Origin: Oscillospiraceae bacterium
GTDB taxonomy: Bacteria; Bacillota; Clostridia; Oscillospirales; Oscillospiraceae
Direction: 5' to 3'
Assembly: GCA_902798545.1 (NCBI GenBank)
Contig: CADBWQ010000015.1
Location: forward strand, 1 to 60,907
Length of the DNA: 60,907 nucleotides
Shown in pieces: positions 3,336 through 39,589 of the stretch. Within the stretch, counting starts at the first letter, position 1; each line of letters opens with the position of its first letter. The position numbers and the translations under genes are program-made. The notes beneath the pieces were generated by a model that saw only the letters and a list, made by a program, of their open reading frames with translations, was not told the origin of the DNA and ran no database searches.

Positions 3336-4265
3336 ATGCAGGAAACGCAGAACATGTTGGACTTTCTGAGAGAAGAGGGCATCGGTGAATCCCTGATCGG
3401 TGAAATCGAGGCTTTCCGGCGGGCGTATCCGGCGACGGGCGACCTGCGGCGGATTCCGAAGCCCCATTTTCACTATTACGGAAAGGAGATCTGGCTGAAA
3501 GCGCTGACGGCGCTGCTCGCCGGGGAAAACATCCTCCTGGTTGGCCCAAAGGCAACGGGTAAGAATGTCCTGGCAGAGAACCTCTCTGCGGTGTTTGATC
3601 GGCCGCAGTGGGACATCTCTTTCTATCTGAATACGGATGCGGCCTCCCTCATCGGGACCGATACCTTCCGCGGCGGCGAGGTTGTCCTGCGGGAAGGTCC
3701 GATCACCCAGTGCGCGAAAGCGGGCGGCTTCGGCGTCCTGGATGAGATCAACATGGCCAAGAACGAGTCCCTTGCCGTGCTGCATGCGACGCTGGACTTC
3801 CGCCGGATCATCGACGTGCCCGGTTACGACCGGATCAGTCTGGCACCGGGGACCCGCTTCATCGCCACCATGAACTACGGCTACGCCGGTACCAGGGAAC
3901 TCAATGAAGCGCTCGCCTCGCGCTTTATGGTGATCCAGATGCCCATCATTTCGAATGAAAACCTCCGCAAGCTCCTCGTTACCCAGCACCCCGCCCTGAA
4001 GCCGGAATACTCCGACCAGCTGGCCCAGCTCTTTGGCGAGATCCGGGCCAAGTGCGAGAGCGCCGAGATCTCTACCAAGGCGCTGGATCTGCGCGGTCTG
4101 CTCGCGGCGGTTTCCCTCGTCGAGAACGGACTCAGCCTCGGCGACGCGCTGGAGCTCGGCATCATCAACAAGAGCTTTGACGACTTTGAACGCCAGCTTG
4201 TGACCGACATCATCTCCGCGCGCATCGATGGCACAGTCAGCCGGAAAGAGCTCTTCCTGTCATGA
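3336..4265 (+). CDS. MoxR-type AAA+ ATPase
   Basis: About 309 residues. Walker A GPKATGKN (about 70-77), Walker B VLDEINMA (about 134-141), sensor-1 region FIATMNYGY and an arginine-finger segment LNEALASRFMV identify the MoxR/CbbQ/NorQ branch of AAA+ chaperones. These ATPases remodel or insert metals into partner enzymes together with a VWA-domain protein, which here is the next gene, overlapping by 4 nt (ATGA). AAAGGAG at 3321-3327 lies only 2 nt from the ATG at 3330 but 8 nt from the ATG at 3336, so 3336 is the likelier start. The client protein is not evident from the window. Confidence 0.88.
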   Translation: MQETQNMLDFLREEGIGESLIGEIEAFRRAYPATGDLRRIPKPHFHYYGKEIWLKALTALLAGENILLVGPKATGKNVLAENLSAVFDRPQWDISFYLNTDAASLIGTDTFRGGEVVLREGPITQCAKAGGFGVLDEINMAKNESLAVLHATLDFRRIIDVPGYDRISLAPGTRFIATMNYGYAGTRELNEALASRFMVIQMPIISNENLRKLLVTQHPALKPEYSDQLAQLFGEIRAKCESAEISTKALDLRGLLAAVSLVENGLSLGDALELGIINKSFDDFERQLVTDIISARIDGTVSRKELFLS

Positions 4266-29826: not shown

Positions 29827-32109
29827 ATGCTTGTCTGGTGGAAAATTGTACTTGCTGCAATCATAGCATTTTTAATTTCATATGTTGCTACTCCTGTGGT
29901 TAAGAGCTTAGCGGAAAAAACACATACCGTGGATATTCCGGCGGATTATCGACGGGTTCATGATCATCCGATACCCTTGCTCGGCGGACTTGCAATCTGG
30001 CTGGCATTTGTTATATCCGTACTGATACTGGTCCCTCTTAATCGACAGGTGATTGGCCTGCTTGCCGGTGCAAGCCTGATTATGCTGATGGGTGCCGTGG
30101 ATGACAGGTATAATCTCAGCCCGTGGATAAAGCTCTTTGTGCAGATCCTTGCCGCGGGTATCGTCATCTACAGCGGTATTTACATCAGGAATCTTTCTTT
30201 CATCGGCGAGGGTGAATCGGGTTTCGGTGTTCAGCTTGGCTGGCTCTCTGTTCCTGTAACGATTATCTGGATCGTCATATGTACCAATGCAGTGAATTTG
30301 ATTGATGGTCTGGATGGCCTTGCTGTGGGCATTACTGCGATTTCTGCGACAACGCTTTTGATCGCGAACCTGATGCTCCCCTCATCGTTCTGGTATGTAC
30401 CCATTCTGATTGCGGCCATTCTTGGTGCATGCATCGGGTTTCTCCCGTATAATCTTCATCCTGCGAAGATTTTTATGGGGGATACCGGGTCTCAGCTTCT
30501 TGGATTTCTTCTTTCTGCGGTTTCCATTCTGAGCCTTACCAAGTTCCATGCGCTGGTACCATTTGTCGTTCCTATTCTGGCGCTTGCCCTGCCTTTGGGC
30601 GATACTGCCTTCGCGGTTGCCCGCAGGATCGTCAAAAAACGCAGTATATTTAATGCGGACAGCGGACATATCCATCACCGCCTGCTTGCCACAGGTATGA
30701 GCCAGAGACAGGTTGTTGCCGTGCTGTATGTGGTTACTGTCTTTTTCTGCTTTGTCTCTTTGCTCGTGATCCGTCCCGGGGATCAGCTGATTCGTTTTAT
30801 TCTGATTGTCTTCGTGCTTGTGGTTGCCTTCCTCGCGCAGTTTATGTTTTTCCCGATCAAGACCAAGGAGGAGGATGGGGAAAAAGCTGCGACAGGGGTG
30901 AAGAAGCATATCCTTGTTGTCTCTCAGTATTACTATCCCGAGAACTTCCGCATCAATGACATGACCTGCGAATGGGTGAACCGTGGATACAAGGTGACCG
31001 TTCTGACCGGTGTACCGAACTATCCTGTCGGTGAGTTCTTCCCCGGCTATTCCTGGACAAAGAAACGGCATGAAGTTTGGAACGGTGTTGAGATCCTCCG
31101 TATTCCGGTGGTGCCCCGCGGCCATGGCCCCATTGGCATGGTACTGAATTACTTTTCTTTTGTTGTGACTGGCTGGATCTGGAACTGGGTGACCGAGGTC
31201 GATGCTGATCTCGTGTTCAGTTTTGAGACCAGTCCCATGACCCAGGTGAAGGTGGGCTGCCGTTATGCGAAGCGGCACCATGTTCCTCATTATGCTTATA
31301 TTCAGGATCTCTGGCCAGAGAATGTGGAAGTCGTAACCGGCATCCACAGCAAGCTTGTTATTAAGCCGATCGACCGTATGGTTGACCAGATATATAAGGA
31401 TGTGGATGAGATCTATGCCACATCTCCAAGCTTCGTGGAAGCAATCGTGAACCGCAATGTACCTGTTCCGAGAGAAAAGGTTCATTATTGGCCGCAGTAC
31501 GCAGAGGAGTTCTATCGTCCCATCGAAAATGCGGATGTCTTTGAGATACCGAAGGACGACAGCCTGAAAATTGCTTTTACCGGAAACCTCGGCTTTGCCC
31601 AGGGGCTGGATGTCCTGCCGAAGGCTGCGGAATTGCTGAAAGAGGATAATGTGAAATTCGTTATTGTCGGCGGCGGACGCTACCAGGAAAAATTTGAAGA
31701 AGAAATCAGAGAGAGAAAAGTCCAGGATAAGTTCATCCTGATTCCGCGGCAGGCGCCGGAACGGATCCCCGAGATGCTGAGTGCCTGTGATGCCGGGTTT
31801 GTCTCTTTCGCAAAGGATCCTCTTTGGGAAAACACAATTCCCGCTAAACTTCAGACTTATATGGCCTGTGGCAAGGCGATTATTGCCTCTGCTTCCGGCG
31901 AGACGGAGAGAATCATCAGGGAAGCGCAGTGCGGCTTCTGCGCTGAGTGTGGCAACCCAGAAGCGCTGGTGGCTGAAATCCATAAGCTGATGGTCGCGGA
32001 TCGCAGACAGCTGGGAAAGAATGCCCGCGCATATTTCGAAGCGAACTTCACAAAGAAAATGCTGATGGATGAAATGGATGAGTATTTTGCTGCGAGGATT
32101 GAATCATGA
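29827..32109 (+). CDS. Fused WecA/TagO-type phosphoglycosyltransferase and WbuB-like GT4 glycosyltransferase
   Basis: 760 residues in two parts. Residues 1-345: about ten membrane helices with polyprenyl-phosphate HexNAc-1-phosphate transferase motifs (MGAVDDRYNL, NAVNLIDGLDGLA, KIFMGDTGS, GHIHHRLLATGMSQ), which load sugar phosphate onto undecaprenyl phosphate at the inner face. Residues 352-755: a GT4/GT-B glycosyltransferase (ILVVSQYYYPENFRINDM, PHYAYIQDLWPENVE, ITFTGNLGFAQGLD-like segment IAFTGNLGFAQGLD, C-terminal PAKLQTYMACGKAIIASASGE). These are usually separate proteins; the fusion would add the second sugar directly. AGGAGGAG precedes the ATG; 4-nt overlap with the next gene. Visibly AT-richer than the core genes. 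Confidence 0.83.
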   Translation: MLVWWKIVLAAIIAFLISYVATPVVKSLAEKTHTVDIPADYRRVHDHPIPLLGGLAIWLAFVISVLILVPLNRQVIGLLAGASLIMLMGAVDDRYNLSPWIKLFVQILAAGIVIYSGIYIRNLSFIGEGESGFGVQLGWLSVPVTIIWIVICTNAVNLIDGLDGLAVGITAISATTLLIANLMLPSSFWYVPILIAAILGACIGFLPYNLHPAKIFMGDTGSQLLGFLLSAVSILSLTKFHALVPFVVPILALALPLGDTAFAVARRIVKKRSIFNADSGHIHHRLLATGMSQRQVVAVLYVVTVFFCFVSLLVIRPGDQLIRFILIVFVLVVAFLAQFMFFPIKTKEEDGEKAATGVKKHILVVSQYYYPENFRINDMTCEWVNRGYKVTVLTGVPNYPVGEFFPGYSWTKKRHEVWNGVEILRIPVVPRGHGPIGMVLNYFSFVVTGWIWNWVTEVDADLVFSFETSPMTQVKVGCRYAKRHHVPHYAYIQDLWPENVEVVTGIHSKLVIKPIDRMVDQIYKDVDEIYATSPSFVEAIVNRNVPVPREKVHYWPQYAEEFYRPIENADVFEIPKDDSLKIAFTGNLGFAQGLDVLPKAAELLKEDNVKFVIVGGGRYQEKFEEEIRERKVQDKFILIPRQAPERIPEMLSACDAGFVSFAKDPLWENTIPAKLQTYMACGKAIIASASGETERIIREAQCGFCAECGNPEALVAEIHKLMVADRRQLGKNARAYFEANFTKKMLMDEMDEYFAARIES

Positions 32110-33323
32110 AGAATAAGTTTGAAGCAAAATACTATTATCGCGCTGCGTGCGCAATCATCCTGATTGCGGTTGCGGTCAGCATGTTTGCGTATGTCTGGAT
32201 CCCGTTTGTTTCGGATCATAATCAGACTAATCATCTGACAGGCTTTGGTAATATCGGCATGTCTTTAGGCCTTTATGCGATTGTTTATGCTTTTTCTGGT
32301 TATCGTTTTCGGGCTTTCATTATTGGCGACGAGAGGAAGGCCAGCATCATTGCGGCTCAGATTGTGACGCTGATTGTTACGGATATTACCGAGATCTTCA
32401 TCTCTCTGGCTATTCTGGGCGAGTTTCGCTTCTTCTGGATGATTACGTGGAGATACTTCTTGCTTGGGTGTGTGCAGGCCGTGGTAAACGGCTTGATTAC
32501 AGTTTTGATGGTAAGCGGATACCGCAGCATATTTCCACCTTATCAGATCCTTGAGATTCATGGGGATGCGGATAATGGCTTGAGAGAAAAGATGAATGCC
32601 GTCTTCTACAAGTTTCATGTGAAAGACAGCATCCATTATTCCACTGCTGATATTGATAAAAAGATCCGGGATTATGATGCGGTTCTGATCAATGATATTC
32701 CGGCTGTGAACAAAAATGACATCGTCAAGTTCTGTTTTGAACAGGATAAACGTGTTTATATCACGCCTAAGATTTCCGATATTCTTGTCAAATCTTCCTT
32801 GGACGTAAACCTGTTTGATACCCCGGTTTATCTCTGCCGTAATGATGGTATTACAACAGCCGAACTTTTCTGTAAGAGGGCTTTTGACCTGATTGCCAGT
32901 CTTGCTGCTCTGATCATTCTGTCACCGCTCTTTCTGGTCACGGCAATTGCGATTAAGAAAGAGGATGGAGGCCCGGTATTCTTCCGACAGGAGAGATGTA
33001 CTGTTGGGGGGAAGCGTTTCATGATCGTTAAGTTCCGTTCCATGATTGTGAATGCCGAAGCAGATGGCCGCACGCATCCTGCGGGCGAAGATGATGATCG
33101 TATTACCAAGGTAGGTAAAGTGATTCGTGCGGCGAGAATCGATGAGCTTCCTCAGGAAGTATTAAGCTGCCTACGTGATAATCCTAGAATGACCAATGCT
33201 AACTTAATAGAAAAGATCGGGAAGTCTCAGCGAACGATAACTCGTATATTAGCAACCCTAAAAGGAAAAGGCTTAATTGTACGTGTTGGATCGAATAAAG
33301 CGGGATACTGGCAGGTAGTGTAA
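32106..33323 (+). CDS. Truncated exopolysaccharide sugar transferase fused to a winged-helix tail
   Basis: 405 residues. Residues 1-350 are a polyprenyl glycosylphosphotransferase: four to five N-terminal helices, a Rossmann-like CoA-binding-type middle, then the catalytic segment CKRAFDLIASLAALIILSP, FFRQERCTVGGKRFMIVKFRSM and RAARIDELPQ. Family members continue with a WNVLKGDMSLVGPRP-type block of about 40-60 residues; here it is replaced at about nt 33156 by 55 residues of a winged helix (LIEKIGKSQRTITRILATLK, ending RVGSNKAGYWQVV), the usual C-terminus of AlbA/Schlafen-like ATP-binding regulators. A deletion probably joined two genes. Enzyme activity is doubtful because the conserved GPRP region is missing. 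Overlaps the preceding gene by 4 nt. Confidence 0.78.
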   Translation: MKNKFEAKYYYRAACAIILIAVAVSMFAYVWIPFVSDHNQTNHLTGFGNIGMSLGLYAIVYAFSGYRFRAFIIGDERKASIIAAQIVTLIVTDITEIFISLAILGEFRFFWMITWRYFLLGCVQAVVNGLITVLMVSGYRSIFPPYQILEIHGDADNGLREKMNAVFYKFHVKDSIHYSTADIDKKIRDYDAVLINDIPAVNKNDIVKFCFEQDKRVYITPKISDILVKSSLDVNLFDTPVYLCRNDGITTAELFCKRAFDLIASLAALIILSPLFLVTAIAIKKEDGGPVFFRQERCTVGGKRFMIVKFRSMIVNAEADGRTHPAGEDDDRITKVGKVIRAARIDELPQEVLSCLRDNPRMTNANLIEKIGKSQRTITRILATLKGKGLIVRVGSNKAGYWQVV

Positions 33324-33410: not shown

Positions 33411-33596
33411 TAAACACGCTACAAAATGTATCCCATTGAAGTAAAATCGGGAAAAACGTATTCGCTAAAGTCTTTGATTCGGTTCAAGGAGAAATATAAG
33501 CAAAGGATTGGTGGAGTCTACGTTATTCACCCGAAGAATCTGATTGAGAAAGATGACATCCTATGTATTCCTCCGTATATGACGATGTGCCTATAG
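33411..33596 (+). pseudogene. C-terminal remnant of a DUF4143 ATPase
   Basis: An open stretch ending with TAG at 33594-33596 reads MYPIEVKSGKTYSLKSLIRF from 33426, then GGVYVIHPKNLIEKDD and PPYMTMCL. This matches the C-terminal nuclease-like end of DUF4143 ATPases (IEVKSGK, YVIH, P-x-YM). The ATPase part is absent; an in-frame stop lies at 33411. Between 33324 and 33410 there is only AT-rich sequence with an inverted CCGATAAA/TTTATCGG. Confidence 0.7.
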
Positions 33597-33623
33597 TACT
33601 CTTCTTCTTCGAAAAGTTCTAAG

Positions 33624-33655
33624 TGAAAAAAATGCGGAATGCCGCAAAAATTTCA
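33624..33655. repeat. Nested palindrome, copy 1
   Basis: TGAAA-n4-TGCGG-n4-CCGCA-n4-TTTCA, perfectly symmetric in both arms, 28 nt after the DUF4143 remnant and just upstream of a promoter. Confidence 0.85.
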
Positions 33656-33665
33656 GATATATGGC

Positions 33666-33695
33666 TTGCTATGCTCACAAGTCCGGTGGTATAAT
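33666..33695 (+). promoter_or_regulatory. Promoter of the DUF4143 ATPase gene, framed by palindromes
   Basis: TTGCTA (33666-33671), 18-bp spacer, TATAAT (33690-33695). Palindrome copy 1 ends 10 bp upstream of the -35 box and copy 2 covers about +1 to +31. Confidence 0.65.
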
Positions 33696-33702
33696 AACCT
33701 CG

Positions 33703-33733
33703 TGAAAAAATTGCGGATGCCGCAAAAATTTCA
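33703..33733. repeat. Nested palindrome, copy 2
   Basis: TGAAA-n4-TGCGG-n3-CCGCA-n4-TTTCA, ending at the base before the ribosome site of the ATPase gene; it would form a hairpin in the 5' leader as well as an operator in DNA. Confidence 0.85.
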
Positions 33734-33747
33734 TGGAGGTTATTTCG

Positions 33748-35049
33748 ATGCAGTATGCCAGAAAGCAATATATGGATCAGCTGATCCGCAAAAGGGACAA
33801 TGGACGTATCAAAGTCATTACGGGTCTCAGACGGAGCGGAAAGTCCTACCTCCTGTTTACTCTTTACCGTCAGTACCTCCTGGATAACGGTGTCGGAGAA
33901 GATCAGATCGTAGGACTTGCTCTGGACGAGATCGATAATGCAAAATATCGCAACCCTTTTGAACTGAACAAGGTCGTGAAGGAGCGGATGCCGGATAAGA
34001 ATAAACGCTATTACGTGTTTATCGATGAAATCCAGTTTGTAGACGAGATCCGGAATCCATATGTGGATAATCCGAATGAGAAGATCACCTTTATCGATGT
34101 GGTGCTTGGGCTCATGAAGATTCCGAATGCCGATATCTATGTAACGGGAAGCAACTCAAAGATGCTTTCCTCAGATATCCTCACGCAGTTCCGTGACCGG
34201 GGTGATGAGATTCGTGTCAATCCGCTGTCCTTTGCGGAAGTCTTTGAGCATTATGAAGGAGATAAGCGTGGAGCATGGCGTGACTACTACACCTACGGCG
34301 GTATGCCTTTGGTTTGGGCAATGGAGTCCCATGAGGAGAGAAGCCGCTATCTGCGGGACCTTTTCAACCGTACTTATATAAAGGACGTCCTGGAGCGCCA
34401 TCAGGTGAATAATGATGCAGAGGTCCTGGAAATTCTTCTGAATGTGCTGGCCTCGGGTATAGGTTCTCTGACCAATCCGAGCAGGCTGTCGAACACGTTC
34501 GCAAGTGAACGACAAATCCGGATTGCGCCGGATACGATAGACAAATACATCGGATTTTTTATGGAGGCGTTTCTGATTCAGAAAGCAGAGCGGTACGATG
34601 TGAAGGGACGGAAGTACATCAAGACACCTGTCAAGTACTATTATTCCGATCCCGGCTTACGAAATGCAAGGCTCGGATTCAGACAGTTGGAAGAAACGCA
34701 TCTGATGGAGAATGTCCTGTACAACGATCTTATTCGCAGAGGCTTCGATGTGGATGTCGGTGTGATTGAGCAGAATACGAGGGATGAAGCAGGAAAGAAG
34801 ATCCGCAGGCAACTGGAAGTTGATTTTGTGGTTAACAGAGGCGATGAACGGTATTATATTCAATCTGCGCTGTCTGTCGATGATCCTGAAAAGAAGGAAC
34901 AGGAGATTGCCTCGCTGATCAGAATACCTGATTCCTTCAGGAAAATCGTAGTTGTCAAAGACTATGTGAAACCATGGCGGGATGAAAACGGCATTCAGTA
35001 CGTTGGCATCGAGGATTTCCTTCTGGATGAAAGCCTTATTTCCGGATAA
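33748..35049 (+). CDS. AAA_14/DUF4143 ATPase
   Basis: 433 residues. N-terminal STAND-like AAA domain with Walker A GLRRSGKS (26-33), Walker B YVFIDEIQ (about 89-96), sensor VTGSNSKMLS; then a winged helix and the C-terminal DUF4143 domain (FFMEAFLIQKAERYDVKGRK, PVKYYYSDPGLRNA, RQLEVDFVVNRG). In many relatives the last domain keeps an E-x-K nuclease-like motif; here the equivalent strand reads YYIQSALS, so that motif is lost. GGAGG at 33735-33739 sets the start at ATG 33748 rather than 33733. Function unknown; this family is abundant and variably present in gut bacteria and often sits in accessory loci. Flanked by palindrome copies 2 and 3. Confidence 0.85.
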   Translation: MQYARKQYMDQLIRKRDNGRIKVITGLRRSGKSYLLFTLYRQYLLDNGVGEDQIVGLALDEIDNAKYRNPFELNKVVKERMPDKNKRYYVFIDEIQFVDEIRNPYVDNPNEKITFIDVVLGLMKIPNADIYVTGSNSKMLSSDILTQFRDRGDEIRVNPLSFAEVFEHYEGDKRGAWRDYYTYGGMPLVWAMESHEERSRYLRDLFNRTYIKDVLERHQVNNDAEVLEILLNVLASGIGSLTNPSRLSNTFASERQIRIAPDTIDKYIGFFMEAFLIQKAERYDVKGRKYIKTPVKYYYSDPGLRNARLGFRQLEETHLMENVLYNDLIRRGFDVDVGVIEQNTRDEAGKKIRRQLEVDFVVNRGDERYYIQSALSVDDPEKKEQEIASLIRIPDSFRKIVVVKDYVKPWRDENGIQYVGIEDFLLDESLISG

Positions 35050-35059
35050 TGGATGCCCG

Positions 35060-35089
35060 TGAAAAAATGCGGATTGCCGCAAAAAATCA
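35060..35089. repeat. Nested palindrome, copy 3 (degenerate outer arm)
   Basis: TGAAA-n3-TGCGG-n4-CCGCA followed by AAAAATCA: the inner palindrome is intact and the outer right arm has decayed. It begins 11 nt after the DUF4143 gene. Confidence 0.8.
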
Positions 35090-35113
35090 GCGCTCTGAAA
35101 AATGCTCAGAGAC

Positions 35114-35142
35114 TTGACAAAGGCGACTGGACAGATTACAAT
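35114..35142 (+). promoter_or_regulatory. Sigma-A promoter of the second ATPase gene
   Basis: TTGACA (35114-35119), 17-bp spacer, TACAAT (35137-35142). Confidence 0.78.
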
Positions 35143-35204
35143 GTTGCCAAACTGAATAAAAGTTCAGAGAAAAATTATTCAGAAACAAAAAGAGGTGAGA
35201 ACCT

Positions 35205-36575
35205 GTGTTTATAGGACGGGAAAAAGAGCTGCAAGCCCTTTCGGCCGAGCTGTCTGCAGGGAAGAAAAAAACTGCTGTTCTGATATATGGAAAACGCAGA
35301 GTCGGAAAATCAACGTTAATCAATGAGGCCGCCAAGGTGTTTGATGGTATTGTTGTCAACCATCTGTGCGTGACGAGCACCTTTGAAGGAAATCTGGAAC
35401 TCCTTTACAGGAATGTGTCAGAGGGCCTGTCTCTCCCAAATATTCGTTTCGATTCTTTGTTTGCGATGATGGATTACCTGGGGACGTTGGACAAGAGAAT
35501 TCTGCTGATCATTGATGAGTATCCCTATCTGAAGCAGACAAAAAAGAAGAATGAAGTCGACTCTTATATGCAGGCGGTCATCGACAGGCTTCCCGGGAAT
35601 GTGAAGCTGATTCTCTGCGGTTCCTACATTACGATTATGAAGGAATTACTGGCAGAAGATAATCCGTTGTTCGGCAGATTCTCCCTGATCCAGCATATCC
35701 ACGATTTTGATTATTACGATGCCGCACAATTCTACCCTGACCTGCCGGTACGTGAGAAAGCTGCCTTCTATGGTGTGTTTGGAGGATGCCCTTATGTCCT
35801 TGAGAATCTTGAAACGGACAAGTCCGTAAAAGACAATATCATTCGTCTGCTTCTGCCCGAAACGGGACTTATCAGGTCGCACATCGAAAACGTTATGTTG
35901 AAGGAGATTCAAAAATCCTTTGATGCCAGGATATTGGAGTCCCTTGGAAACGGGAAGAAGAAATATACGGAGATAAGGGATCAGCTGGGAGGCAGTGAGA
36001 CAGGGCTTTTGGATAAACAGCTGAAGATTCTTCTGGACATGGAGACAATACAGAAGACCGAGCCGATCAACCGACGGAATGACAGGAAAAAGCAGTTTTA
36101 TGAAATCACGGATAACCTGATGCGTTTCTACTTCTCGTTTATCTTCGGAACCGCCGGTACCATTGCAAGGATAGGGGAAGAGCAATACTATGATCGGAAC
36201 ATCGAGAAGACTCTTGAGCAGTTCATCAGCAGAAGATTTGAAGGAATCGCTCTGCAGTACTTCCACAGGATGGCGGTTCGAGGAAAGATCCCGGATATCG
36301 AGGATTTCGGCTCCTATTGGTATGATGACCCGGTAAATAAAACAAACGGAGAATTCGATTGTGTTATCAGGCGTACCGGCAATCTGTACGACTTCTATGA
36401 ATGCAAATTCTTCGACAGGCCAATGACACTTAAGGAGTGTGAGCAGGAAAAGGATCAGCTCCAGAAGCTGCAGGGAATTGAAGTGACCAGAACAGGCTTT
36501 GTGTGTGCAGGGGGCTTCGATTTTGAAAGCAAAAGCGAATTTATTCTGATTGACGGGGAAGCCCTGTATCAGTGA
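35205..36575 (+). CDS. ATPase_2/DUF234-type ATP-binding protein
   Basis: 456 residues: archaeal-ATPase-like NTPase with Walker A GKRRVGKS (29-36), Walker B LLIIDEY (about 100-106), sensor ILCGSYITIM, a winged-helix segment (GNGKKKYTEIRDQLGGSETGL, split by a loop), and a C-terminal DUF234 domain with a PD-(D/E)xK-like core (GEFDCVIRR then YDFYECKFF, giving D...E-x-K). Start is GTG 35205 after AGAGGTGAG. The domain plan (STAND-like ATPase plus nuclease-like end) parallels the upstream DUF4143 protein. A defence or mobile-element role has been suspected for such families but is not shown here. Confidence 0.82.
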   Translation: MFIGREKELQALSAELSAGKKKTAVLIYGKRRVGKSTLINEAAKVFDGIVVNHLCVTSTFEGNLELLYRNVSEGLSLPNIRFDSLFAMMDYLGTLDKRILLIIDEYPYLKQTKKKNEVDSYMQAVIDRLPGNVKLILCGSYITIMKELLAEDNPLFGRFSLIQHIHDFDYYDAAQFYPDLPVREKAAFYGVFGGCPYVLENLETDKSVKDNIIRLLLPETGLIRSHIENVMLKEIQKSFDARILESLGNGKKKYTEIRDQLGGSETGLLDKQLKILLDMETIQKTEPINRRNDRKKQFYEITDNLMRFYFSFIFGTAGTIARIGEEQYYDRNIEKTLEQFISRRFEGIALQYFHRMAVRGKIPDIEDFGSYWYDDPVNKTNGEFDCVIRRTGNLYDFYECKFFDRPMTLKECEQEKDQLQKLQGIEVTRTGFVCAGGFDFESKSEFILIDGEALYQ

Positions 36576-37069: not shown

Positions 37070-39589
37070 ATGAAAAGCAATATGAAAGCCAAGTTTGAGC
37101 TGGTGGAATACAACACAGGTTCCCTGTATGTTGCAAGGCGGGTAAAAAAGATTTCAAGTGAGCTCCACTGGCACAGAGAAATTGAAATTGTGTATGTGAT
37201 TCACGGTTCACTGGATGTGAGGGTCGATAAAAAAGAGTTTTCTGCCAAAGACAGGCAGATGGTGCTGATCAATGCCAATCAGATCCACTCTATCAACGAT
37301 GACAGCAATGTTGAAGGGGATTTTTTCCTTCTGCAGATTAACGAGCAGCTGCTGAAAAACCTGAGGCAGGATTCCAAACAATTCAGACTGACGACCCTGA
37401 TAGACCGGGAGGATGAGGAGGTTTCTCCTGAAGCAGCAGAAGAAGTGTTTTCCGATATGGACAAAATTGTGGAAGAAGCGGAAAACAATTCAGACCCGAC
37501 GAAAGTGAATACGTTATCCCTCCTGCTGCTTTCAGCGCTGATAAAGAACTTCGGGACAGTTCAGTCTGAACTTGTTATGAACAACAACGATAATCAGTAT
37601 TATATGGTGAAGAAGATTATCGACTATATCAGCAACAATTATGCCAGCCAAGATTTAAATCAGGCAGATGCGGCGAAAAAGCTCGGGCTAAGCGCCGGGT
37701 ATCTTTCCCGTCTGTTTTCTGCTTATACAAATACTTCGTTTGTACACTATCTGAATACATACCGCATTGACAATATCTGCTATGAACTTCTGAGCACGAA
37801 AGATACAGTTACTGAGATATATCTGCGCAACGGCTTCTCAAACGGGAAAACTTTTAACCGCGTTTTTAAAGCAATAACGGGGGTAAGCCCGAGAGAGTAC
37901 AGGTCTGATCTTTCCAAGAGCAGAAGTATAAAAATTAACACTGACCGCACAACTTCAACGTCAGTCGGTTCCTATGTCAATTATGCAGACACCAGCAACA
38001 GGGATACAAGCAGCCTGCAGAAGGATTTTCTTGTCAGTGACACCGGAATAAAGCATTCTCAGGAAGCAATGCACCATATAACCAGAAGCATCAGCGCAAG
38101 TATTCTTTCTCCGACATCACAGTTAAAAAAACCTGCACAGAAACTTCTTTGTACAGGCAGGGCATTTGATATTCTGCTTGCTCCGTGGAGAGAGCAGTTT
38201 GAGATGTGCCTGGCAGAGATGAGATTTGATTATCTGCGTTTCCACGGTTTGTTTAATGATGAGATGGGGATTATATACAGGAAGGGCCAGTACAGCGATT
38301 ATAATTTTTATTATGTTGATAAGGCAATAGCCTATCTGCTGGAACACGGCGTCCGACCTTATATTGAGCTCTCTTTTATGCCCTCGACACTGGCAAGCAA
38401 GCCGGATACCGTTTTTGTTTACCGTGCCAATATTTCCATGCCCAGGGAAATCGAAGAGTGGGAAAAACTTCTGGATGCATTTATACAGCATGTTATCCGC
38501 AGGTTCGGCAGGGAGGAAGTGACTCACTGGTATTTCGAGGTCTGGAATGAACCGGATATTGACGAGTTCTGGGCAAACACATATGAAGAATATCTGCTGC
38601 TTTACCGGGTGAGTTATAAAGCACTAAAAAAGGCCGATATGCGGCTGAAGGTTGGCGGCCCTGCATCTTCGAGCGTTATGTTTCAGAAGAAAACAAAGTT
38701 TTTTGAGTTCCTGGATTATTGCAAAGAACACAGGATTTATCCTGACTTTGTCTCTCTGCATCCGTATCCTGCCATCTTTATGAAAGACGACAATAACTAT
38801 GAAGAGCTTCAGAAGGTATGCGATGTAGAATACACAAGGAAGAATATGACATGGGTAAACGGAGTGATGAAAGAACGGGGCCTTTCCAATATTCCTGTTC
38901 ATATGAATGAATGGAATTCCAGCCCGAGATTTGATGATTATACACACGATACGGCCTATATGGCAACCTATGTAATCAGCACGGTCCTCAGCTGCAGCAA
39001 TTTGTGTGATGTGTTAGGATGGTGGACATTATCTGACCTGTTTGATGAGGGAGGAGTTGTTTATAAAGAATTCGGAGGAGGATTCGGCTTACTAAACAGA
39101 GATGGTTTAAAGAAGCCTGCCTACTGGGGCATGTGGGCTTTAAACAAACTGTGTGACAGTGTTATTGAAGAAGGAGAAGACTATATCATCACCAGAGATG
39201 AAAAGCATATTGCAGTTCTGATCTGGAATTATGCTTTTTTTAAAGATAAATTCGCTGAAGGAGACAGATCCGGATTAAGCTACTATAACCGCTATGATAT
39301 TTTTGATGAAGTACCCGCAAAGAAAGTACAGCTGACGCTGACAGGTTTTCATTCCAGCACACTTGTGATTAATAAATACAGCTTCAGCCGACGCCACGGA
39401 AGCATTTATGATTTCTGGATAAACTCCGGCGCGATGGAATATCTGAACAGCGAGCAGCTGAAGATGCTGAAGGAAAACAATCATCTGCGCACAGCGAGCT
39501 TTGTGAAATCAAATATTGAGGAATTGATCCTGGAGGAAGAGATCAGACAATTCGGCTTTGCGTTGTATGATATAACATTTTTGGAGTGA
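37070..39589 (+). CDS. AraC-family regulator fused to a GH39 beta-xylosidase-like domain
   Basis: 839 residues. N-terminal cupin sensor (about 1-110: ELHWHREIEIVYVIHGSLDV), AraC/XylS double helix-turn-helix (about 180-285: NQADAAKKLGLSAGYLSRLF, NGFSNGKTFNRVFKAITGVS), and a C-terminal GH39 barrel plus beta-domain (about 340-839) with acid/base Glu494 in WNEPD and nucleophile Glu614 in MNEWNSS. There is no signal peptide, so the whole protein is cytoplasmic; the catalytic residues are kept. It probably senses xylo-oligosaccharides and controls the following GH43/ABC genes. GGAGG lies 7 nt before ATG 37070. Confidence 0.87.
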   Translation: MKSNMKAKFELVEYNTGSLYVARRVKKISSELHWHREIEIVYVIHGSLDVRVDKKEFSAKDRQMVLINANQIHSINDDSNVEGDFFLLQINEQLLKNLRQDSKQFRLTTLIDREDEEVSPEAAEEVFSDMDKIVEEAENNSDPTKVNTLSLLLLSALIKNFGTVQSELVMNNNDNQYYMVKKIIDYISNNYASQDLNQADAAKKLGLSAGYLSRLFSAYTNTSFVHYLNTYRIDNICYELLSTKDTVTEIYLRNGFSNGKTFNRVFKAITGVSPREYRSDLSKSRSIKINTDRTTSTSVGSYVNYADTSNRDTSSLQKDFLVSDTGIKHSQEAMHHITRSISASILSPTSQLKKPAQKLLCTGRAFDILLAPWREQFEMCLAEMRFDYLRFHGLFNDEMGIIYRKGQYSDYNFYYVDKAIAYLLEHGVRPYIELSFMPSTLASKPDTVFVYRANISMPREIEEWEKLLDAFIQHVIRRFGREEVTHWYFEVWNEPDIDEFWANTYEEYLLLYRVSYKALKKADMRLKVGGPASSSVMFQKKTKFFEFLDYCKEHRIYPDFVSLHPYPAIFMKDDNNYEELQKVCDVEYTRKNMTWVNGVMKERGLSNIPVHMNEWNSSPRFDDYTHDTAYMATYVISTVLSCSNLCDVLGWWTLSDLFDEGGVVYKEFGGGFGLLNRDGLKKPAYWGMWALNKLCDSVIEEGEDYIITRDEKHIAVLIWNYAFFKDKFAEGDRSGLSYYNRYDIFDEVPAKKVQLTLTGFHSSTLVINKYSFSRRHGSIYDFWINSGAMEYLNSEQLKMLKENNHLRTASFVKSNIEELILEEEIRQFGFALYDITFLE

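Follow-up and report, generated by a model that had tools for sequence, protein, structure and literature searches.

In a 60,907-nucleotide contig of an Oscillospiraceae bacterium (GCA_902798545.1, CADBWQ010000015.1; the window), an AAA_14/DUF4143 ATPase gene is accompanied by three copies of a nested palindrome, two of which frame its promoter. Comparison with related loci suggests, with a probability of roughly 0.7, that palindromes 1 and 2 are an operator pair bound by the ATPase that they control. The window features between 33426 and 36575 described below lie on the plus strand.

A preliminary description of this DNA had reported the nested palindrome three times around the gene, and the repeats proved to be real, with the coordinates, the 3-nt centre of copy 2 and the decayed right outer arm of copy 3 all seen again. 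Palindrome 1 (33624–33655) is a perfect TGAAA-4-TGCGG-4-CCGCA-4-TTTCA and is the sole match to this pattern in the window when up to three mismatches are allowed; none of 100 dinucleotide shuffles contained one. It lies near the left edge of the homology between loci, which falls at 33618–33628 for most matches. A promoter match with 10 of 12 consensus bases (TTGCTA-18-TATAAT with TG before the second hexamer, 33666–33695) is positioned between palindromes 1 and 2, which places the first candidate operator upstream of the -35 hexamer and the second (33703–33733) over approximately +1 to +31 of the inferred transcript. This layout agrees with the claims that copies 1 and 2 frame the ATPase promoter and that copy 2 is in the mRNA leader. 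Palindrome 2 abuts a GGAGG ribosome-binding site (33735–33739, read by eye) that serves a start codon at 33748, which is probably the true start of the ATPase rather than 33733. Palindrome 3 (35060–35089) directly follows the ATPase stop codon, and its left gap is 3 nt instead of 4 nt. As described previously, copies 1 and 3 each lie just 3' of a DUF4143 reading frame: copy 3 begins 11 nt past the end of the ATPase gene, while copy 1 begins 28 nt past the end of a C-terminal remnant of a different DUF4143 gene (33426–33596), which is of the ExK type (PIEVKSGK). This remnant is not detected by Pfam, and was recognized by its similarity to the DUF4143 loci L183–L185 (E 5e-5 to 3e-3) and to an unlabelled frame in L051 (2e-11).

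The ATPase itself (33748–35049, 433 aa) consists of AAA_14, a winged-helix-like region and DUF4143. Pfam scores were 88.4 bits for AAA_14 and 55.1 bits for DUF4143, against cut-offs of 27 and 28.1, respectively, and residues 3–428 match the PADLOC model PDC-S01 (E 9.6e-106), a single-gene phage-defence candidate. The AlphaFold model is confident (pLDDT 90.3, pTM 0.89), and by eye it features a predicted winged helix lookalike made up of helices 224–236, 244–255 and 261–273 followed by two strands. The top Foldseek match to this model was the archaeal AAA+ ATPase SSO1545 (2fna; E 2.2e-8, probability 1.00, TM 0.47/0.56), which shares 15% identity with the window protein, while a profile search of solved-structure sequences with the ATPase found nothing. 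An alignment was made with 59 of the 78 available proteins. In its PD-(D/E)xK-like domain D359 is invariant, and Q372-S373-A374 occupy the position expected for ExK (register by eye), with Q372 and S373 invariant and A374 present in at least 90% of the 59 sequences. The catalytic D plus ExK of PD-(D/E)xK nucleases is therefore incomplete, and ordinary nuclease activity would not be expected in this subfamily. This distinguishes it from PDC-S01 as described in published passages, where the ATPase is fused to a PD-(D/E)xK family member.

PDC-S01 is reported to be among the commonest candidate defence genes. Excerpts of two 2026 papers rank it fourth in frequency among prokaryotic defences (PMC12988326) and first among the individual loci of rumen genomes (PMC13356809), and the first of these papers states that experimental validation is pending for most such candidates. 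The published passages give no mechanism and mention neither an operator nor a cassette boundary, and a search of one open-licence library found no paper on operators or palindromes of the AAA_14/DUF4143 family.

The motif is rare away from this gene. Two pattern searches of the 3.03-Mb assembly returned matches at this locus only. When 102 genomes of the genus were scanned for a 19-base pattern, TGCGG-N3/4-CCGCAAAAATTTCA, it matched nine times in five genomes, as against no matches for the same pattern written backwards, and all nine matches adjoin this ATPase (two at the window locus and seven identified by tblastn). A sample of 391 genomes of the class yielded three matches, two of which are at the window locus; the third is inside an unrelated ORF and has no outer arms. 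The preliminary description had named an equal frequency of the motif at random intergenic sites as a refuting result, and this was not seen in these genomes of the genus and the class.

To compare the upstream regions of related genes, relatives were collected by a protein search of genome contigs, and paired repeats were scored as two 28-base stretches 55–100 bp apart, with the 99% null, a score above 19 of 28 bases, set from 1,560 shuffles. A matched repeat pair exceeded this null in 48 of the 78 scored loci (the window and the identical loci L011 and L012 included), a count that speaks for the nearest part of the family, as the best 80 of 495 confirmed relatives (95% to 52% identity) were kept and three further loci had too little upstream sequence. 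Shuffle nulls ignore the relatedness of the loci, so a better yardstick is provided by 160 control regions upstream of other genes on the same contigs, only three of which reached the pair score. Inverted repeats at the promoter of the ATPase are thus conserved beyond chance. The remaining 30 loci fell below the threshold, some of them with one clear site or with an inverted second site, and L015 has a different repeat in place of the pair. Isolates within the set include Bullifex porci, Succinivibrio dextrinosolvens and Oribacterium sinus. The majority of the loci derive from metagenome-assembled genomes, in which faulty binning can make transfer across phyla look more frequent than it is.

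The pair is retained across phyla, and its sequence varies with the clade. Cores of TGCGG..CCGCA, TGCGTA..TACGCA (Bacteroidales and others) and TGTTCC..TCTGCA each characterize a clade, and further cores are AGGTGG..CCACCT in L070 and GGGGCAC.. in L088. The two sites of one locus resemble each other with a mean score of 22.2, whereas site 1 compared with site 2 of another locus scores 21.9 at over 95% protein similarity and falls to 11.0 below 55%. In 62 of 77 loci, the score of the locus's own pair was above its mean score against loci under 75% protein similarity. Divergence of the core from clade to clade, with the two copies of any one locus still matching, points to sites read by one co-evolving partner, and the ATPase is the simplest partner, since the stretch shared between loci holds this one gene. 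The promoter lies between both sites in the window and in the loci read. The suggestion that the palindromes are an autoregulatory operator is therefore well supported by sequence comparison for copies 1 and 2. Site spacings in 47 loci cluster near 72–78 and 82–87 bp. Helical phasing of the two sites was unsupported, as the Rayleigh value was about equal for periods of 8–13 bp in these loci.

Eight plasmid or phage stretches were also viewed, and dyads were visible by eye in six of them at 45–50% identity: in L090/L091 (which are one sequence), L093 and L096, at 47–48% identity, and less distinctly in L092 and L094. L089 (60% identity) and L095 (32%) showed no clear dyad pair by eye. Acinetobacter accounts for 174 of the 235 plasmid records with an ATPase relative, and L095 is the one Acinetobacter record viewed. 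The Prevotella nigrescens sequence L090 is a 2.63-kb circular record that holds the ATPase and a methylase specificity piece, and another strain of this species (L091:985-5322) carries the same ATPase beside methylase genes and an Mpi-type invertase.

An entirely different function is conceivable at the level of nucleic acid structure, with the palindromes acting as terminators of the antisense strand or as RNA hairpins. All three palindromes score as terminator-like on the minus strand (5–6 pairs, then a T run), the region had five such sites compared with 1.5 in shuffles, and copy 2 is within the leader. However, the promoter lies downstream of copy 1, not only the inner but also the outer arms recur, and the TGTTCC clade keeps its pair although this core is not self-complementary and cannot form a hairpin. 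The TGTTCC core is also inverted at site 1 in several members, which together with its lack of self-complementarity favours recognition by a protein. We therefore consider a hairpin or terminator role very improbable. Rfam at gathering scores returned two tRNAs only from the whole window.

A candidate for the part of the ATPase that reads the sites emerged from the same alignment when proteins were divided by the fifth base of the core. Residue 221, which immediately precedes the first helix of the winged-helix-like region, is Asn or Lys in all 21 proteins with a TGCGG core and in none of the 16 with a TGCGT core; the other 22 of the 59 aligned loci have a different core or are unclassed, and Lys also occurs here in several proteins with other cores. 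As this position is the best of all alignment columns and the core classes switch only approximately three to four times on the tree, it is a lead rather than proof.

Among related phage contigs, some carry the unit and others a lone palindrome at one position. Several metagenomic phage contigs that cluster together have the unit immediately 3' of the stop codon of a small gene at the end of a frame after a phrog_709 protein, which we take to be a tail chaperone, the PHROG itself being without known function. The unit is directly after the phage gene in L097, while in L098 and L099 an AlbA_2 gene has been inserted in between and the end of the phage gene is repeated before the unit. In L098, a 53-bp piece of the phage gene (1763-1815) is repeated on the far side of the AlbA_2 insertion (3753-3805), where it is followed by a copy of the 3' end of the next frame. 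The 13 closest phage loci (L116–L128) include the unit in three cases (L116, L119 and L122, which correspond to the L098, L099 and L097 contigs) and a lone palindrome in four (L120, L121, L124 and L125), two of which are decayed; the other six have no palindrome by a pattern search over the locus or by eye in the 330 nt 3' of the gene. For the more distant phage relatives L129–L161, no lone palindrome was found in the 12 of 37 entries covered. A pattern scan of the viral collection returned six contigs, namely those of L097–L099 along with L100, L163 and L166. The unit of L100 has diverged, and a third copy precedes the phage gene that comes next. L163 and L166 have lone palindromes followed by an AbiE unit (by eye), which is broken in L163. 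Homology between L097, which is filled, and L121, which is empty, extends to the last base of the palindrome, breaks and resumes further on. These filled and lone sites, with their breaks in homology, identify the palindrome as a place where gene content changes.

The lone sites bear on who reads the palindromes. They persist in phages that do not carry the gene, and those of L120 (~3480–3511) and L121 (5044–5075) differ by a symmetric core change (TGCGT..ACGCA vs TGCGG..CCGCA) on flanks that are 84% identical, as if both were kept for binding. This could mean that the palindromes are true operators read by a host regulator or by another protein that is not the ATPase. Such a reader is quite improbable, because the sites travel with the gene across phyla, their sequence tracks that of the ATPase and the stretch common to the loci holds the ATPase gene only. 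A host protein would need to have co-evolved with the unit across phyla.

The preliminary description had also proposed that the palindromes mark a cassette boundary, and this stood in part: homology mostly ends at the palindromes and lone palindromes occupy the same spot in related phages, but copy 3 is present in a minority of loci and neither a recombinase nor a target-site duplication was found. Following removal of duplicates, 20 distinct loci match the window gene at over 80%. The matches begin at 33619–33628, the edge of copy 1, in 14 of these and later in the other six (one at a contig edge), while on the right they stop close to either the stop codon (35049) or the end of copy 3 (near 35085); at this divergence, homology outside genes is expected to fade somewhat. 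Two further homology comparisons gave the same edges. Copy 3 exceeded the threshold in 14 of 76 loci, including one (L015) with an unrelated repeat, compared with 2 of 532 controls; L013 is outside this count because of too little upstream DNA, though its copy 3 is visible, and L026 is one below the threshold. The copies at the two edges repeat one palindrome in direct orientation, and many loci lack copy 3. There was no recombinase or transposase inside the unit, and no near-identical empty site was found from which a target duplication could be read. The best filled and empty pair has flanks of 84% (left) and 82% (right) identity, and no relative among 99 genomes matched both flanks of the window locus as an empty site would.

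These edges could be taken to mean that the palindromes are primarily recombination or insertion sites, with a 1.4-kb cassette moved site-specifically by the ATPase or a host recombinase. The alignment of 14 of 20 left ends with palindrome 1, the right ends at the stop codon or palindrome 3, the lone palindromes 3' of the phage gene where relatives carry the unit, the L097/L121 break at the last base of the palindrome and the interleaving of Bacillota, Spirochaetota and Pseudomonadota sequences on the tree would all fit. We nevertheless regard this as unlikely. It gives palindrome 2 no role, yet loci missing one copy usually retain the second (by inspection), and the ATPase has lost its ExK residues. 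The scarcity of palindrome 3, the lack of a recombinase in the unit, the later starts in six loci and the failure to find near-identical filled and empty sites count against it, as does the general fading of homology outside genes. The pair with 97% identity, L050/L068, also shares its further flanks, so that it represents one locus and no move. Ordinary exchange between repeats suffices to explain the cassette-like edges. A combined possibility is a one-gene mobile module, in which the palindromes are both operators and the sites where the ATPase, alone or aided by recombination enzymes of the host, inserts and removes its own gene. This appears unlikely; if true, the lone phage palindromes would be empty targets or footprints, and the core sequence of a clade would be the target to which that clade homes.

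For the preferred reading, a self-bound operator pair, we infer the binding, the repression, the trigger and an antiviral effect of the ATPase. As a dimer or a larger oligomer, the ATPase would bind each nested dyad and occupy or bridge both sites, so that the promoter in between is trapped and the ATPase keeps its own level low. A signal, perhaps an infecting phage or plasmid, might then alter its nucleotide or oligomer state and release repression. Palindrome, promoter, palindrome and gene would constitute one self-regulated module that is exchanged whole and carries its own control wherever it lands, with palindrome 3 and the lone phage palindromes most simply being edges or scars of this exchange, which could proceed by homologous or illegitimate recombination between repeats. 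Palindrome boundaries of this kind would let single-gene modules swap between phages and bacteria without a transposase. A clade-specific operator pair also offers a ligand for DNA-binding assays, a reporter with which to look for the inducing signal, and a candidate residue for specificity. If the ATPase acts as effector and also represses its own gene, derepression in the course of an infection would be a concrete trigger.

Partial parallels exist among characterized systems. According to an excerpt of one study, AbiEi recognizes inverted repeats within its own promoter, which it represses (PMC7319586), and inverted repeats at its own promoter are what the ATPase gene has in common with the AbiE type IV toxin–antitoxin family (AbiEi, Rv2827c). 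AbiE also shares the phage slot of the ATPase unit, as identified by eye in L163 and L166 and by models in L124 (AbiEi E 5.9e-79, AbiEii E 1e-126). However, AbiE comprises two genes with a separate antitoxin, whereas here a single ATPase would be effector and repressor, and the AbiE repeats are 23 bp long and 3 bp apart, in contrast to nested dyads that are approximately 75 bp apart. The AbiE promoters in L124 (2000-2125) and L166 (2190-2340) feature dyads whose CCGCAAAA/GCGGAT half-sites strongly resemble the ATPase half-sites. Similarly, an excerpted account of BrxR describes inverted repeats at a promoter, repression by the protein and an association with phage defence (PMC9122601), although BrxR is a dedicated WYL-domain repressor and no WYL domain was found here. 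The literature offers one hint: a Thermus thermophilus AAA_14/DUF4143 gene is listed with a value of 6.6 in a table from the plasmid-dependent gene expression section of another paper, as excerpted (PMC4406477).

For the DUF4143 family as a whole, the literal motif did not hold up. Thirty-three DUF4143 loci were fetched, of which L005, L007, L188, L200 and L201 were dropped because no Walker-containing ORF was found. Of the 28 remaining genes, sampled from the taxonomic order, a matched pair exceeded the 99% null in two (L191 and L192), both from genomes whose DNA also matched the window gene. A looser dyad test of the other subfamilies, with L191 and L192 left out, placed 14 of 26 loci at or above the 95% null, a result that carries little weight given its shuffle-only null and the possibility that some dyads are terminators of upstream genes (e.g. 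L196). Only one DUF4143 subfamily carries the motif in its literal form.

The next gene in the window encodes an ATPase_2 plus DUF234 ATPase (35205–36575; PADLOC PDC-S27, E 1.6e-39), and by eye its TTGACA-17-TACAAT promoter is framed by two dyads of its own: CTCTGA..TCAGAG (35093–35111), which is upstream of the -35 hexamer, and CTGAA..TTCAG (35152–35167). Homology between the window and genome G015 starts at 35093. In a relative with 82% DNA identity (L054/G015), the arms of both dyads are kept and changes are mainly between the arms. By the paired-repeat measure, the DUF234 promoter of the window did not reach significance (p 0.47), and the measure was over the null for L206, an 89%-identical DUF234 relative in G015. 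The start-finding pattern worked in 7 of 26 DUF234 loci, one of which exceeded the null. Four DUF234 loci with 32–33% identity (L215, L216, L233 and L234) feature, by eye, a long single dyad (TAGTCAAGTACGATTTG..CAAATCGTACTTGACTA) that overlaps the -35 hexamer.

Judged from its neighbours, the window locus looks like a place of module turnover. Upstream of the DUF4143 remnant, an ORF at 32106–33323 begins as a bacterial sugar transferase gene, covering the first 93 of 179 Pfam positions, and continues in frame into a winged-helix segment; it is probably a fusion left by this turnover. Downstream of the DUF234 gene, an 839-aa ORF (37070–39589) combines a glycosyl hydrolase family 39 domain with an AraC-type part for sensing and DNA binding.
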